This document shows, piece by piece, positions 39,899 to 61,205 of a stretch of 62,495 nucleotides of DNA (within the stretch, counting starts at the first letter, position 1; each line of letters begins with the position of its first letter). This DNA comes from Ignavibacteriota bacterium. Its GTDB lineage: Bacteria; Bacteroidota; Ignavibacteria; Tepidaquicellales; Tepidaquicellaceae. The notes beneath the pieces were generated by a model. It was not told the origin of the DNA. It saw nothing but the letters and a program-made list of their open reading frames with translations, and ran no database searches. Both the position numbers and the translations under genes were made by a program. The stretch spans positions 1 through 62,495 of the forward strand of contig JAPLFJ010000030.1 in the NCBI GenBank assembly GCA_026390735.1, in the 5' to 3' direction.

Positions 39899-40874
39899 AA
39901 TGACTGTCTAAAATAAATTCCTGTACTAACTTTAAATTATTGTCCTGAAGCTTTAAGGTCTTAAGATTCTCTATTGCTGTAGGGATTTTTTCTGAAATAT
40001 TCTTATTGCCTTTTTCAAAATACGAGTAGCAGTAACTACCAAGTACTTGTATAATTCTTAACAGAGCAAAATAATCGAGTGATTCCATCTGTCTGCCCTT
40101 GTCTGTCTTTTCGTATTTACTGAATTCATCAAAATAAAATCCTGAGAGTATTATCCTTTCGTCCTGCGTTACGTTAATACTTCCTGAATAAAGAAAAGAT
40201 ATAAGATCGTATTGCGGCGGTCCGAGCCTTCCCGACTGGTAATCAACAAAGTACAGGTCATCGTTGTTGTGCACTATGTTTCTCGGCTGAAAATCCCTGT
40301 ACATGAAGTAATTATCAGATACTTTTACTGTAACATTCAATATGTTATTTATAAAACTGTCTTTATGAAACTTACTTTTTGAGTTCAGGAATTTATCTAT
40401 GTAATATGTCTCAAACTTGCTGGTGTCCAGATAAATCTGTTCTTTATCGAAAATTCTTGTTTCAAAGCAGTATGAGAAGTCTATCTTCTGCTTGCCGTAG
40501 TACTGAAATTTTATCAGATATCCGAGTGCCTTTCTGTACAGAGAAATCAGCGATTCCCTGTCTGTAGCAGTTTTCACAGTATCGTAAAGAGTATTCTCCC
40601 CGAGGTCGGAAAGAAAATAAACTTTAAAATCGTCCGATACATACAATATCTTTGGGACGTTTAAACCCAAACTGTTAAATACTTTTGTGAATTCCAGAAA
40701 TGTAATATTCTCTTTTGAATATGAATTATAAATACCGATTATGCTCTTTCCTGTAGTCTTTATACGTACTATTAATTTATCCGAAACACCTGATTTCAGA
40801 TGCTCGTAACTCTTATATCCTTCCGTGAAGTTTTTACCGTATATCTGCAGTATTGTCTCTAAGTATTTAATCAA
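39873..40874 (-). CDS. Aminoglycoside phosphotransferase-fold kinase, AmgK-like
   Basis: 333 aa. APH/choline-kinase fold. The catalytic loop is [20 protein letters not shown] (about 216-235) followed by [18 protein letters not shown]. The RDF-x-PRN and GP-x-x-YDL spacing resembles AmgK-type sugar kinases that phosphorylate MurNAc/GlcNAc at C1 in cell wall recycling, rather than drug-modifying enzymes. The usual partner, a MurU-like nucleotidyltransferase, is not adjacent. Overlaps the start of the upstream epimerase by 8 bp region (40867-40874), so both are co-translated. Substrate is inferred, not proven. Confidence 0.78.
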
Positions 40875-41790
40875 TCTGTTTTACTATATTAATTAATGCT
40901 GTTTCTATTCCTTTAAACTCAAAACGAAATCCTTTGTCAGTTAGTTTCTTTGGTATTGCTCTCTGGCTTCCTGTGAGAAATTCGGCAAACTCTCCAACAG
41001 CTATCTTTAACACAAACTTCGGGACGCTGAATATTGAAGGACGTTTTAATACTTTACCTAAAGTATTACTGAATTCTTTATTCGTTACTGGATTTGGTGC
41101 CGTTCCGTTAACGATTCCCGATAACGATTTGCAGGTAATCGCTTCTTTGTATATGTTTACTATATCATTAACGTGTATCCAGGGGAGGTACTGTCTGCCG
41201 TTTCCAAGCGGACCGCCTGCAAATAGCCTGAACGGCTGTGCCATCTTCGTAAACCCGCCTTCTTTCTTATCAAGGACTACTCCGACTCTTATACATACTG
41301 TCCTCACACCGTATTCAATTGATTTCAAAGCTGAAGTTTCCCAGTCTTTGCACAGGTTTGCGAGATAATCAACACCGTTCGCCGATGATTCATCGAGTAT
41401 TTCGTCACCCCGGTCGCCGTAAATACCAGTCGCAGATGTACTTACAAATGTATGCGGTTTATTTTCGCATTTACCAATTGCTTCTGAAATAAGATTTGTA
41501 GTATTAATTCTGCTGTCGTGCATAACCTTCTTATATTCTTCATTCCATCTTCTTCCCGCAATAGATGCTCCTGAGAAATTAACTACTATACCTGCACCTT
41601 CAATTATACTTAAATAAGAATCAATATTATCAGAATAATGTGTGTATTCAACATTCTTAATGCCCGATATTTTCCCTTCACTTCTTGTCGCGAGTACTAT
41701 TCTATAATCATCTTTAAGTATATTGGTAAGCCTGCTTCCCAGAAATCCGGAACCTCCAAACATAACAACTTTTTCAACCATAATAGGCAT
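40867..41790 (-). CDS. TIGR01777 family NAD-dependent epimerase/dehydratase
   Basis: 307 aa from the ATG at 41790. A TTG at 41820 and another ATG at 41781 are also in frame; the Rossmann strand VVMFGGSGFLGSRL begins only a few residues later, which favours 41790 or 41781. Extended SDR with GGSGFLG nucleotide site, SATGIYGDRG with the active-site Tyr, IRVGVVLDKKEGGF and LPWIHVNDIVNIY, then a C-terminal DUF1731-like segment (ALKRPSIFSVPKFVLK region). Matches the YfcH/SDR39U1 family, whose substrate is not known. Divergent from hpnC. Confidence 0.88.
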   Translation of the reverse strand: MPIMVEKVVMFGGSGFLGSRLTNILKDDYRIVLATRSEGKISGIKNVEYTHYSDNIDSYLSIIEGAGIVVNFSGASIAGRRWNEEYKKVMHDSRINTTNLISEAIGKCENKPHTFVSTSATGIYGDRGDEILDESSANGVDYLANLCKDWETSALKSIEYGVRTVCIRVGVVLDKKEGGFTKMAQPFRLFAGGPLGNGRQYLPWIHVNDIVNIYKEAITCKSLSGIVNGTAPNPVTNKEFSNTLGKVLKRPSIFSVPKFVLKIAVGEFAEFLTGSQRAIPKKLTDKGFRFEFKGIETALINIVKQID

Positions 41791-41871
41791 TGTTTTATAT
41801 TTCTGTTTATGTATAGACAATTTAATATATATTTACAATATTTTAAGTTCATTTAACAATTAAATTAATTA

Positions 41872-42741
41872 ATTATCAGCTTTACTGAAGCCGCATATTA
41901 TTATTGTGAGAACTTAACGAAGAGCAATTACGAGAACTTTCCGGTTGCGTCATTCTTTATACCTAAAAACAGGAGAAATTATATATTTAGTATATATGCT
42001 TTTGCACGAACAGCAGATAATATTGCAGATTCAATATACCTGAAACCTGCGGATAAGATGGATAAACTCGAGTTTATGGAAGACCTGCTCCTGAACTTTG
42101 GTGATTATGACGATAATCTTGAAATGCATTTCAGGAATATCTTCGTTGCCCTTCACGATACAATCAAGAAACTTAACTTACGAAGCGATGATTTGCTTAA
42201 TCTGTTAAAAGCATTCAAGCAGGATGTGAATGTTAACCGTTATGAAAGGTTTGATGATATCCTGGGTTACTCAGAGAATTCTGCGAACCCCGTAGGGAGA
42301 CTGGTTCTCAGGGTTTTTGATTATGATTATGAAAAGGATAAACATATGTATGCTCTGTCAGATAAAATCTGCTCGGCATTACAGTTTACAAATTTCTGGC
42401 AGGATATTGCTGTTGATTTAAGGATGAGCAGAATATACATACCAACTGAAATAATGGATAAATATGGTTATTCTGTAGATGATTTGTACCTGAAGGTAGA
42501 GAACGAAAAATTTAAGAAAGTGATGAAGGATTTAGTCGACAGGACTGAACAGATGTTCATAGAAGGAAACGAACTTACCGGTTTACTTAAGGGAAGGTTA
42601 AAGATGGAGATAAAAGCAACTGTTAAAGGCGGTATGAAAATACTCGAATTGATAAAGGAATCAAAGTATAAAGTTCTATCGGACAGGGTTAAACTCTCAA
42701 AATCTGACAAAATTAAAATATTAGTGACGTCAATATTCTGA
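41872..42741 (+). CDS. hpnC: Squalene synthase HpnC (hydroxysqualene pathway), non-ATG start
   Basis: 289 aa if begun at the ATT at 41872. The conserved family N-terminus AAYYYCENLTKSNYENFPVA, then FFIPKNRR, IYAFARTADNIAD (first Asp-rich motif) are encoded upstream of the first ATG (42058), and a stop (TAA, 41866-41868) closes the frame just before. No ATG, GTG or TTG exists in between, only ATT and ATC. The second Asp motif is FWQDIAVDLRMSRIYIP. HpnC converts presqualene diphosphate to hydroxysqualene. TGATG coupling to hpnD. Starting at 42058 would delete the first Asp-rich motif and about 62 residues. Confidence 0.85.
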   Translation: MISFTEAAYYYCENLTKSNYENFPVASFFIPKNRRNYIFSIYAFARTADNIADSIYLKPADKMDKLEFMEDLLLNFGDYDDNLEMHFRNIFVALHDTIKKLNLRSDDLLNLLKAFKQDVNVNRYERFDDILGYSENSANPVGRLVLRVFDYDYEKDKHMYALSDKICSALQFTNFWQDIAVDLRMSRIYIPTEIMDKYGYSVDDLYLKVENEKFKKVMKDLVDRTEQMFIEGNELTGLLKGRLKMEIKATVKGGMKILELIKESKYKVLSDRVKLSKSDKIKILVTSIF

Positions 42742-43610
42742 TGCAGGAGAACATCAATACTCATAAGGAAGTACTGGATGTAATGAAGAAAAGTAAGACA
42801 AATTTCTTCTATTCATCGGTTTTCCTGAATAAATCAAAGAGCGAAGGTCTGAGGATTATTTATGCTTTTTGCCGATTAACGGATGATATTGTTGATAACG
42901 AAGAACTCTCACCTGAACAGAAGATAGTTGAAATAAGGAAATGGAAAGACAGGCTTAATAACTCTCTTAACAACGATTCTGACGATGAATTTTTTTCAAT
43001 ACTGAAAGAACAGATAAATATTTTCAATATTCCGCATAAACCTTTCTTTGATTTAATAGAAGGAATGGAGATGGACATAGAAAAGAACAGGTATGAAACT
43101 TTTGATGAACTCTACAGGTATTGTTACTGTGCTGCTTCGGCAGTCGGTTTGATGACGATAGAAATATTCGGTTATAAGAATACGGATATTAAGAAATATG
43201 CCGAATATCTCGGACTGGCACTGCAACTGACGAACATATTAAGGGACGTAAAGAAAGATGCTCTTAATAACAGGATATACATACCGCTTGAGGATATGAA
43301 AAAGTATAATTACACTGAAACTGATTTGATGAATTCGGTTTACAACGATAAATTCCGCAGGCTTATGGAATATGAGTACAGCAGGGCCTTAGAATATTAT
43401 GCAAAAGCCGAATCATTTCTTACTGAAGAAGATAAAGCTAATATGATAGCGGCAGAGATTATGGGAAAGATTTATTATAAACTTCTTGAAAAGATTAAAT
43501 CGTCAGGATTCAATGTTTATAATCGCAGCGTAAGGATATCAAAATTATGGAAGCTGATACTGGCTTATTCGGTATTTATAAAATATAAATTGCTGTACAA
43601 AACACATTAA
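42741..43610 (+). CDS. hpnD: Presqualene diphosphate synthase HpnD
   Basis: 289 aa, isoprenoid synthase fold. Motifs: FYSSVFLNKSKSEGLRIIYA, FCRLTDDIVDNEE (first Asp-rich motif, about 43-55), YCYCAASAVGLMTIEIFGY, and LQLTNILRDVKKDALNNRIYIP (second motif). Condenses two farnesyl diphosphates to presqualene diphosphate, the first step of the hpnCDE route. Its ATG overlaps the hpnC stop by one base, and its TAA overlaps the hpnE ATG by one base. Confidence 0.94.
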   Translation: MQENINTHKEVLDVMKKSKTNFFYSSVFLNKSKSEGLRIIYAFCRLTDDIVDNEELSPEQKIVEIRKWKDRLNNSLNNDSDDEFFSILKEQINIFNIPHKPFFDLIEGMEMDIEKNRYETFDELYRYCYCAASAVGLMTIEIFGYKNTDIKKYAEYLGLALQLTNILRDVKKDALNNRIYIPLEDMKKYNYTETDLMNSVYNDKFRRLMEYEYSRALEYYAKAESFLTEEDKANMIAAEIMGKIYYKLLEKIKSSGFNVYNRSVRISKLWKLILAYSVFIKYKLLYKTH

Positions 43611-44932
43611 TGGGAAAAACTGTATCAATTATCGGAGGTGGTCTGGCAGGTATTTCTGCTGCGGTGTATCTGCGTGAAAGCGGTTACGACGTCAGGCTGT
43701 TTGAATCCACTTCAAAAATCGGCGGACGTACATTCAGTTACTACGATGCTGAAACAGGTCTGACTCTCGATAATGGCCAGCATATTCTTGCGGGATGGTA
43801 TGAAAATACTTTTGAACTCCTTGAGAAAATGAACAAGACTCCTGATCTTAATATGTCGCAGAACCTTCACGTTTTCTTCAAGGAGAAAAACGGAAATGAA
43901 CTGGAGTTCTTCGCTAAAGGGGACGAGCCTTTCCTTTCAATAGCAAAGGGTTTTATGAACTATCCACCGCTTACGTATAAAGATAAGTTTAAATTGCTGA
44001 GACTGAGGGAAATGATTGAAATAGATTTCTCCGAAAGATTGAAAGGTAAGAAACTAAGCTGGCTTCTTGATTACCTTAAACAAACAGATAATCTGAAGAA
44101 GTATTTCTGGGAACCCTTCGCCTTCGCAGTTTTCAACGCACCGCCTGAGTATATAGATGCTGAATTATTCTATAACGTACTGGTTAAAGCATTTGAGTAT
44201 CCAACGGCATTCTCATTGGTCGTACCTGGTGAGTCTCTGAGTGAATTATTCTGCGTTCCTTTTGTTAAATATTCAGAGGGTAAAATCGGACTGAACCTGA
44301 GCTCGAAAGTTGAACAAATTGAAATAGAAGCAAATCAGGTTAAAGGGCTGAAAATGGAGAACGGGGATTATATTACTTCTGATTATTATGTCTCTGCAGT
44401 ACCGTTTTATAATTTTGAACGATTGTTCACTGAGGATTCTTTTACTGCGCATTTTGGCAATTATAAAGAATTAAAACCTGCTTCAATATTATCCGTGTTT
44501 CTGGTTCCTGAAAAGATGCCTGACGGGTTTAATAATAAGTATTATTTTGGTATGGCTGGAATAATTGACGGGTTCTCGCAATGGGTGTTTTTTAAGGATG
44601 AATATGTTTCTGTGATAGTAAGTGCTCCTGAGTATACTATCGCTGAATATGAAGGTATGACTAAAGAGACTGTCTGTGAAATGGTTGAAAAGGAAATAAG
44701 GAATTATTTCCCTGAATTTAAAAATATTAAATTTAAAAAGATCAAATACTTCAGAGAAAAGAGAGCTACATTTCTGCCAGTGACAAACAACGCTGCTTCA
44801 AGGATTGATTCAGCTTGTAATGTCAGTAATTTATTTATAGCAGGAGACTGGACCAACACAGGTTTGCCTTCTACTGTTGAAGGGGCTGTTACAAGCGGCC
44901 GTAAGTGTGCAGAATTAATATCGGGGTCATAA
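43610..44932 (+). CDS. hpnE: Hydroxysqualene dehydroxylase HpnE
   Basis: 440 aa, FAD-dependent amine-oxidase/phytoene-desaturase fold. Dinucleotide-binding N-terminus SIIGGGLAGISAAVYL (about 5-20), then FESTSKIGGRTFSYYD and DNGQHILAGWY. C-terminal FAD segment NLFIAGDWTNTGLPSTVEGA (about 405-424). Reduces hydroxysqualene to squalene, completing the pathway. No squalene-hopene cyclase or carotenoid gene follows in the window; the next gene starts at the very next base and is a CoA-dehydratase activase. Confidence 0.93.
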   Translation: MGKTVSIIGGGLAGISAAVYLRESGYDVRLFESTSKIGGRTFSYYDAETGLTLDNGQHILAGWYENTFELLEKMNKTPDLNMSQNLHVFFKEKNGNELEFFAKGDEPFLSIAKGFMNYPPLTYKDKFKLLRLREMIEIDFSERLKGKKLSWLLDYLKQTDNLKKYFWEPFAFAVFNAPPEYIDAELFYNVLVKAFEYPTAFSLVVPGESLSELFCVPFVKYSEGKIGLNLSSKVEQIEIEANQVKGLKMENGDYITSDYYVSAVPFYNFERLFTEDSFTAHFGNYKELKPASILSVFLVPEKMPDGFNNKYYFGMAGIIDGFSQWVFFKDEYVSVIVSAPEYTIAEYEGMTKETVCEMVEKEIRNYFPEFKNIKFKKIKYFREKRATFLPVTNNAASRIDSACNVSNLFIAGDWTNTGLPSTVEGAVTSGRKCAELISGS

Positions 44933-60015: not shown

Positions 60016-60242
60016 TTGTGTCCGATTTTATCCTAAAGATTTTAATAAGATTAAATATATTAATGTTAATAATCAACTGTTTATTATGTCCTTACATTAC
60101 TATGACAATCCCACTCCCCCAATGGTTTAATTTCTTTCAAATTCATCCCTCCTTTTTATACTGATAATAACCTCTAAAATAATTACTTTACAATATATGC
60201 TTAGTTATAAATACATATATTATCAATAACATAGTAGCAAAT

Positions 60243-61205
60243 ATCAGGAAGAGGTACTTCATCTGGGTTGTTGCATTACTTCTATTAGTAATCTTCGGCA
60301 TTGCCATACAACAGGCTTTAGCTCCCAAAAAGCAGGTCAATAAAATAGAAAGCGACCAGGCTTTCTTCCCTACATCAGCCGATACAAACAAAAATCAGTT
60401 CAACACATTAACATCAAAGTACATTCTTTACAAACTCGAAAAGTATTTAATCAACTGGAAAGACATTCTCGACATCATCGCATTCAATAAATCTTTTGCA
60501 CTCATCGACACCGTTCACGGCGTAGAAAAGTTCGAGATGATTATCAAAACCATCGACCGCAAGAATATGACATTCACTCCGGGCAACGTTGCAGAACTCG
60601 TCGAGAAATACGGTGATATGATAAAAGAACAATGCACTCATTACAAACTAGACTGGCGCATAATTCTTGCAATGATTCGCCAGGAATCTTATTTCAATCC
60701 TACTGCAGTTTCTCGCGCAGGCGCTTACGGCTTTATGCAGATTATGCCTGGCACTGGCAGGGGACTGCAGAACGAACTGAACCTCGAGGATACAAAGACT
60801 CCCGTGAACAATCTCACTGCGGGAATGTATTACTACGCCACACTCGTTGCATCGTTTGAATTCACGGGCGATGACAAGTACAAGTTCGCACTCGCCGCTT
60901 ACAACGCAGGTCTCGGCAGGGTAGTGGACGCTATGACAATCGCAAACTACTTCGGCAAAAATTATAACAAGTGGGACGAAGTCAAAGAGTTCTATCCTTA
61001 TCTCGCTTCAAACAAAGACTCCATACACAAACTCGTATGGCCTAAAATCGGCAGACCTCCGGGCGGCTCTTTAAACAACTGGCAGGAACCATACAAGTAT
61101 GTCGAATACATAACTTTCTATTACGAAAATTATAAGCAGTATTATCCTAATAATCTTGCTGAACCAAAGCAAAAGAAAACCCAAAAGAAGAAGAAAAACA
61201 AATGA
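60243..61205 (+). CDS. Membrane-anchored lytic transglycosylase (SLT), non-ATG start
   Basis: About 320 aa if begun at the ATC at 60243. The frame is open from 60183 and encodes a plausible anchor (RKRYFIWVVALLLLVIFGIAI) and a conserved-looking linker, yet has no ATG, GTG or TTG until 60537. Starting at 60537 would leave the anchor out. The SLT goose-lysozyme-like domain has the catalytic Glu in MIRQESYFNP, then SRAGAYGFMQIMPGTG, AGMYYYATLV, ALAAYNAGLGRV and EYITFYYENYKQYYP. Cleaves the MurNAc-GlcNAc bond to leave 1,6-anhydro ends. Stop overlaps the next start (ATGA). Confidence 0.85.
   Translation: MRKRYFIWVVALLLLVIFGIAIQQALAPKKQVNKIESDQAFFPTSADTNKNQFNTLTSKYILYKLEKYLINWKDILDIIAFNKSFALIDTVHGVEKFEMIIKTIDRKNMTFTPGNVAELVEKYGDMIKEQCTHYKLDWRIILAMIRQESYFNPTAVSRAGAYGFMQIMPGTGRGLQNELNLEDTKTPVNNLTAGMYYYATLVASFEFTGDDKYKFALAAYNAGLGRVVDAMTIANYFGKNYNKWDEVKEFYPYLASNKDSIHKLVWPKIGRPPGGSLNNWQEPYKYVEYITFYYENYKQYYPNNLAEPKQKKTQKKKKNK

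Follow-up and report, generated by a model that had tools for sequence, protein, structure and literature searches.

A conserved ATC codon as the most likely start of the squalene synthase gene hpnC in a genus of Ignavibacteria

In Escherichia coli the infC gene starts with AUU, and translation of pcnB in the same organism is reportedly limited by an inefficient AUU start codon. Starts at AUU, AUC and AUA (AUH starts) occur in bacteria, and AUG, GUG and UUG escape discrimination by initiation factor IF3, unlike other start codons, with AUC falling in the discriminated class (PMC4611024); an excerpt of a further paper describes how IF3 rejects weak pairs at the third position (PMC10158994). Few conserved AUH starts outside infC were found, and those of Staphylococcus aureus come with strong Shine-Dalgarno pairing: in the portion available of PMC13009471, infC of this species starts with AUA, the conserved AUU and AUA starts express at about 10% of the AUG level in poor medium, with ccpN reaching up to 30% in rich medium, and these starts carry extended Shine-Dalgarno motifs. 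Bacteroidetes generally do not use Shine-Dalgarno pairing, according to an excerpt of PMC10783764. As regards ATC, partial texts describe a start inferred for the gene of a ribosomal protein in an archaeon, Staphylothermus marinus (PMC2678158), a disrupted Neisseria gene whose ATG start had mutated to ATC (PMC10210955), and an AUC mutant made as a laboratory construct (PMC10303841). An AUC start of hpnC was not found in the titles and abstract openings of the literature searched, a body of text that most subscription papers lie outside. Non-canonical AUH starts are already known, and what is new in the present case is a conserved one without a Shine-Dalgarno sequence; where such sequences are mostly lacking, as in this lineage, a metabolic gene with a conserved AUC would test how ribosomes select a mismatched start.

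The gene was analysed in a stretch of 62,495 nucleotides (the window) from an Ignavibacteriota genome, G000. The features of the locus, in window coordinates, are the following.

40867-41820, minus strand: TIGR01777-family oxidoreductase gene, divergent, upstream of hpnC (TIGR01777, 315.7 bits)
41866-41868, plus strand: in-frame stop codon TAA, which rules out a longer hpnC N-terminus
41872-41874, plus strand: ATT, an alternative rare start that is not conserved (ATT elsewhere only in G009; TTT, GGT and GTC in other members of the genus)
41875-41877, plus strand: most likely AUC start codon of hpnC (conserved ATC, at which codon structure begins)
41875-42741, plus strand: hpnC, squalene synthase HpnC, from the AUC to TGA (TIGR03464, 276.4 bits, cutoff 250.45)
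42741-43610, plus strand: hpnD, whose ATG shares one base with the hpnC stop, TGATG (best match TIGR03465, 259.3 bits, cutoff 278.6)
43610-44932, plus strand: hpnE, whose ATG shares one base with the hpnD stop, TAATG (TIGR03467, 282.1 bits, cutoff 283.05)

After the TAA the hpnC frame reads TTA ATT ATC AGC TTT ACT GAA GCC GCA TAT, and from this stop to the ATG at 42058 it contains no ATG, GTG or TTG, as an earlier note on this DNA had pointed out, with coordinates that are correct on re-reading. Scanned from 41869, the frame matches the HpnC profile over positions 2-265 of 267 and scores above the curated cutoff, which places the product in the HpnC family. The Pfam SQS_PSY match of the full frame covers profile positions 5-262 (205.6 bits), and that of the version starting at ATG 42058 covers positions 50-262 (161.8 bits). 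A start at this ATG costs about 45 positions of the synthase domain, including the conserved ARTADNIAD stretch, which we take to be the first Asp-rich motif. The prediction that automatic callers would shorten the gene holds for the mechanical ORF caller used here, which places hpnC at 42058-42741 and loses the ARTADNIAD region; with a caller restricted to ATG, GTG and TTG the gene is 61 codons shorter and its conserved active-site stretch is gone. This is a practical problem for annotation, and other genes of G000 seem to be affected likewise.

To compare the 5' ends of hpnC among relatives, orthologues were searched for in 59 genomes. HpnC orthologues are present in 23 of the 29 genomes of the family (f1), and the 5' ends of 22 genes in the family and of 27 outside it were read, the latter comprising 8 + 19 genes from 26 genomes, since G036 appears twice. 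This reading omitted G039, G051 and weaker, paralogue-like matches, and the G003 gene is cut off before its 5' end. Outside the family a canonical start is present in all 27 genes (ATG in 26 of them). Inside it, a canonical start lies ahead of the conserved N-terminus in 15 of the 22 genes, eight with ATG and the other seven with TTG at best, and the seven genes that lack one belong to G000, G004, G001, G002, G009, G019 and G018. The absence extends to all three other members of the genus with an intact 5' end (G004, G001 and G002, with 57-75% protein identity to G000), and likewise to G009, which belongs to another genus (52% protein identity), so that the lack of a canonical start before ATG 42058 is borne out by the relatives as well as by the sequence itself.

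The aligned codon is ATC in all four genus members with a 5' end, as well as in G009. Of the 22 family orthologues, the remaining 17 lack it and have ATG (8), TTG (7) or, as the likeliest codon, ATA (2; G019 and G018, of which G018 is ambiguous). The ATC lies 6 residues ahead of a conserved [AS]-Y, and the ATG of the eight family orthologues that have one lies 5-8 residues ahead of it. A sequencing or assembly error, which the earlier note had held out as the alternative, or a pseudogene without a start, is scarcely credible in view of these data. The assembly does consist of 69 contigs, with other frames that look broken, such as that of an outer-membrane protein with a TAG at L094:708-710, but the separate assemblies of three other species of the genus and of G009 have the same lack and the same ATC, the hpnC frame runs unbroken to its stop and is constrained at the protein level, and hpnD and hpnE are intact.

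The comparison with close relatives, a check that the earlier note had proposed, also bears on which of the rare codons is used. The suggestion of a rare ATT or ATC start stands in so far as a rare AUH start is favoured, but the conserved codon is the ATC at 41875 and not the ATT at 41872, and conservation of ATT among the relatives is limited to G009. Initiation at the adjacent ATT, with ATC as the second codon, would be in keeping with its position directly before the ATC in G000 and G009 and with the predominance of ATT among the infC starts of the family; it is nevertheless improbable, given that G004, G001 and G002 have TTT, GGT or GTC at this place.

Substitution patterns in the four genus members indicate where the coding sequence begins. 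The differences at codon positions 1/2/3 are 0.09/0.08/0.62 in hpnC codons 13-60 and 0.17/0.14/0.36 in codons 1-12, and for the 20 codons that precede the ATC they amount to 0.57/0.54/0.58. The coding constraint ends at the ATC, and the region upstream is without codon structure. In the five hpnC sequences with ATC, a set which G009 entered because of this codon, seven columns are occupied by Ile throughout, and only at the start is a single codon, ATC, used in all five; among the 96 columns with an invariant residue, the codon is the same in every sequence at 12. Of the 115 Ile codons in these genes ATC accounts for the fewest (22), and ATT and ATA, which are rare starts as well, are avoided at the start codon in the five sequences. 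For the four genus members alone this is a weak test, as a single codon is found throughout in two of eight all-Ile columns (one ATC and one ATA). Judging from the sequences compared, the hpnC start is almost certainly non-canonical, and it is most likely AUC.

Translation might instead begin at an upstream start in another frame, combined with a programmed frameshift, or at a longer N-terminus. An out-of-frame upstream ATG stays open across the ATC in G001 and G009, and the hpnC frame itself is open upstream to stops 26 (G004) and 28 (G001) codons before the ATC. We regard both possibilities as very improbable. In G000, G004 and G002 all out-of-frame starts within 110 bases upstream terminate before the ATC, which excludes frameshift entry in these three; G000 and G009 have an in-frame stop 3 codons ahead of the ATC; and the upstream region lacks codon structure. 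Downstream, 13 codons past the ATC and inside the conserved region, an in-frame ATG is found in G002 and a TTG in G004, from which these two could make a slightly shorter HpnC; in the 30 codons after the ATC a canonical codon is absent from G000 and G009, and the sole one in G001 is a GTG at codon 23. On the HpnC tree, in which support is low (62/87) and the placement of G009 is weakly supported, one change is enough to separate the five ATC rows from the two ATA rows, a result matched by 78 of 500 shuffles.

The use of start codons in the family was also assessed with infC, which was found in 28 of the 29 genomes. In 27 of these 28 there is no canonical start at the N-terminus, whereas G006 has TTG. 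A script assigned ATT to 24 of 29 loci, ATC to three and ATA to two, with G006, G018 and G021 ambiguous; by eye, ATC is found at the aligned place in G007, G021 and G017, and ATA in G019. The starts mostly read ATT AAA, and 9 of the 29 infC loci, not including that of G000, are preceded by a Shine-Dalgarno-like motif. In a sample of 87 G000 genes with unambiguous starts, ATG is used in 68, TTG in 15 and GTG in 4, and Shine-Dalgarno-like motifs are present in 11 of the 87 versus 4 after shuffling. No such motif lies within 100 bases upstream of the hpnC ATC in any of the five sequences, and an AUC without a Shine-Dalgarno sequence might be too weak to supply an enzyme, although motifs of this kind are uncommon in G000 generally.

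All 40 tRNA matches of G000 were run through ARAGORN. The initiator tRNA has a CAU anticodon and a C1 x U72 mismatch, and its anticodon stem contains three G-C pairs. A special initiator tRNA that reads AUC was considered and rejected, since none of the 40 matches is initiator-like with an AUC-reading anticodon: one of the two CAU tRNAs is initiator-like, and the sole other tRNA capable of reading AUH codons has the anticodon UAU and no initiator features. The latter is a tRNA-Ile at L218:1501-1575 (plus strand), and tRNA-Ile(GAU) is absent among the 40 found. In G000 a modified CAU tRNA-Ile may be dispensable for reading AUA, and the assembly may lack tRNAs of the rRNA operons.

An RNA structure or riboswitch near the hpnC start was likewise rejected, as three sequences gave no stable common fold (z of -1.74, -0.11 and -0.17), and there are no Rfam matches near the start at E values up to 1. 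A promoter scan near hpnC gave four sigma-70-like sites against a shuffle mean of 1.4, which is uninformative in such AT-rich DNA.

Further AUH starts in the lineage were sought with a coding-potential scan that demands at least 10 codons of coding signal before the first canonical start, and therefore overlooks AUH genes in which an in-frame ATG comes early; some antisense frames remain among the homologous ORF pairs (194 in one set and 85 in another). The scan of 1.07 Mb of G000 flagged 16 of 697 coding ORFs (13 of 472 in an earlier run over 732 kb), and the 13 ORFs of the 732-kb run were looked at together with two in the newly added stretches. Five probable AUH starts result among the 697 coding ORFs of G000, all in genes without a canonical start whose N-terminus looks intact: hpnC, infC and the genes for a lytic transglycosylase, an APC amino-acid permease and the specificity subunit HsdS.

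The lytic transglycosylase (window 60183-61205, plus strand; Pfam SLT, 2.6e-23) has no canonical start until codon 119 of its frame, and its best start is the ATC at 60243-60245, ahead of a membrane anchor. At this start G002 and G001 have ATG, and G008 has TTG at the site aligned by eye, which indicates that AUH starts can arise here without conservation. The permease frame (L095:4921-6219, plus strand) has an ATT right after a TAA, with GGAG just upstream by eye, and no canonical start until codon 20; its Pfam match begins at profile position 2, and a search of the 28 other genomes of the family at E 1e-60 gave no orthologue. The HsdS frame (L141:3175-4449, minus strand) has an ATT (4449) shortly behind an AGGAGG, again by eye, has no canonical start until about codon 92 and apparently overlaps the upstream frame; the geometry of its match suggests that the N-terminus is intact.

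Other flagged frames of G000 were dropped. L094:711-1262 is cut by a TAG, L139:6664-7686 and L101:14086-14853 are fragments of repeat-like proteins, L098:1814-2992 has no family match, and L262:133-1140 and L273:3009-3443 lack their start and look truncated. The frames at window 61163, L100:10979, L139:10263 and L142:1260 resemble short leaders before a nearby ATG. The L094 region holds an outer-membrane beta-barrel frame (L094:580-1262, plus strand), interrupted by an in-frame TAG at 708-710.

In G002, 22 of 580 coding ORFs were flagged, and five of them (L157, L194, L160, L172 and L156) were sent to Pfam. Two are probable AUH cases in addition to infC and hpnC, namely L157:7499-8125 (minus strand; signal-peptide-like, no Pfam match) and L194:13197-14483 (minus strand; flippase-like). 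L160 looks truncated, the domain of L156 falls after the first canonical start, and L172 was left outside the count. In G029, from another family of the order, nine of 317 coding ORFs were flagged, and one probable AUH case was found, an aspartate carbamoyltransferase (TIGR00670; L210:11476-12546, plus strand) without a canonical start until codon 82. This was the only one of the nine that was followed up; L197:6061-6705 looks truncated. The use of AUH starts in the lineage is rare and not confined to infC, and hpnC appears from these sequences to be the sole case outside infC with conservation among those analysed.

These cases lend some weight to the idea that the ATC of hpnC is a weak start tolerated through drift, in a lineage with lax start-codon use, rather than a selected throttle: G000 has other probable AUH starts, in infC, the transglycosylase, the permease (ATT) and HsdS (ATT), and the ATC of the transglycosylase is not common to G002 and G001. 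We think that drift is the less likely account, though a possible one. ATG, a far better start, is one base away from ATC, yet ATC is kept in four genus members and in G009, and it has stayed constant while third positions of hpnC were scrambled, with ATT and ATA also avoided there in all five sequences.

The surroundings of hpnC bear on what a weak start would do. A short intergenic region separates hpnC from the divergent oxidoreductase gene, and the run of hpn genes begins with hpnC. A long divergent frame is found upstream in G004, G001, G002, G009 and G019 as well, and the G002 counterpart is homologous to that of G000. With this divergent arrangement, no upstream gene feeds initiation at hpnC. 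Both downstream neighbours, hpnD and hpnE, are present as best NCBIfam matches, somewhat below their own cutoffs, and in the other four genomes the first candidate start of hpnD falls in the interval from 5 bases before the first base of the hpnC stop to 7 bases after it.

We consider it likely, from the sequence comparisons, that the AUC start has been kept in the genus because low initiation throttles the hpnC run, probably under discrimination by IF3. The gene would be translated from the AUC at 41875-41877 by the normal initiator tRNA (CAU), with the third codon position mismatched, and the codon would be retained because initiation stays low. As hpnC comes first in the hpnC-hpnD-hpnE run, whose genes are tightly packed and overlap by one base from stop to start, a weak start at its head would throttle HpnC and probably, by way of coupling, hpnD and hpnE too. 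Since IF3 normally rejects AUH starts, hpnC output would rise when IF3 activity falls. Such IF3 sensitivity is plausible by analogy, because AUC is an IF3-discriminated codon and infC in this family mostly starts on ATT. Initiation at AUC, its low level, the control by IF3 and the coupling to the neighbours are all features that we infer from sequence.

A wider proposal, which we put forward tentatively and with less than even confidence, is that the genus ties membrane-lipid synthesis to the level of IF3, or to the stringency of initiation, via an AUC without a Shine-Dalgarno sequence on its squalene operon. If true, this would be the clearest case in a lineage where a noticeable share of the genes begin with AUH (5 probable in the 697 coding ORFs of the G000 sample). 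Squalene-hopene cyclase (TIGR01507) was found in none of the 29 family genomes, including G000, by a search of unproven sensitivity, as the 14 controls gave two matches and none over the cutoff. Because no cyclase was found, the squalene pathway of the family may end at squalene or another product, and not at hopanoids.

The hpnC gene has two of the features of conserved AUH starts, namely no canonical codon before the conserved N-terminus and the same codon in aligned relatives. It resembles infC in that an AUH start is kept across relatives and would be open to IF3 discrimination, and differs from it in being a metabolic gene, with ATC instead of ATT, no Shine-Dalgarno-like motif and no evident autoregulatory loop. 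The pcnB gene of E. coli differs from hpnC in codon, gene and lineage. The L12ae gene of S. marinus is similar in that no valid start codon is present and ATC was assigned by alignment with relatives, but it encodes a ribosomal protein of an archaeon, and the passage available gives no conservation of the ATC in relatives (PMC2678158). In the available part of the S. aureus work, ccpN (AUA) and cvfC1 (AUU) have extended Shine-Dalgarno motifs and were characterized by ribosome profiling and reporters (PMC13009471), whereas hpnC, described here from sequence, has no Shine-Dalgarno-like motif in any of the five genomes. These S. aureus genes likewise have conserved non-canonical starts, which in their case lower expression, and cvfC1 is the first gene of its operon, as is hpnC (PMC13009471).
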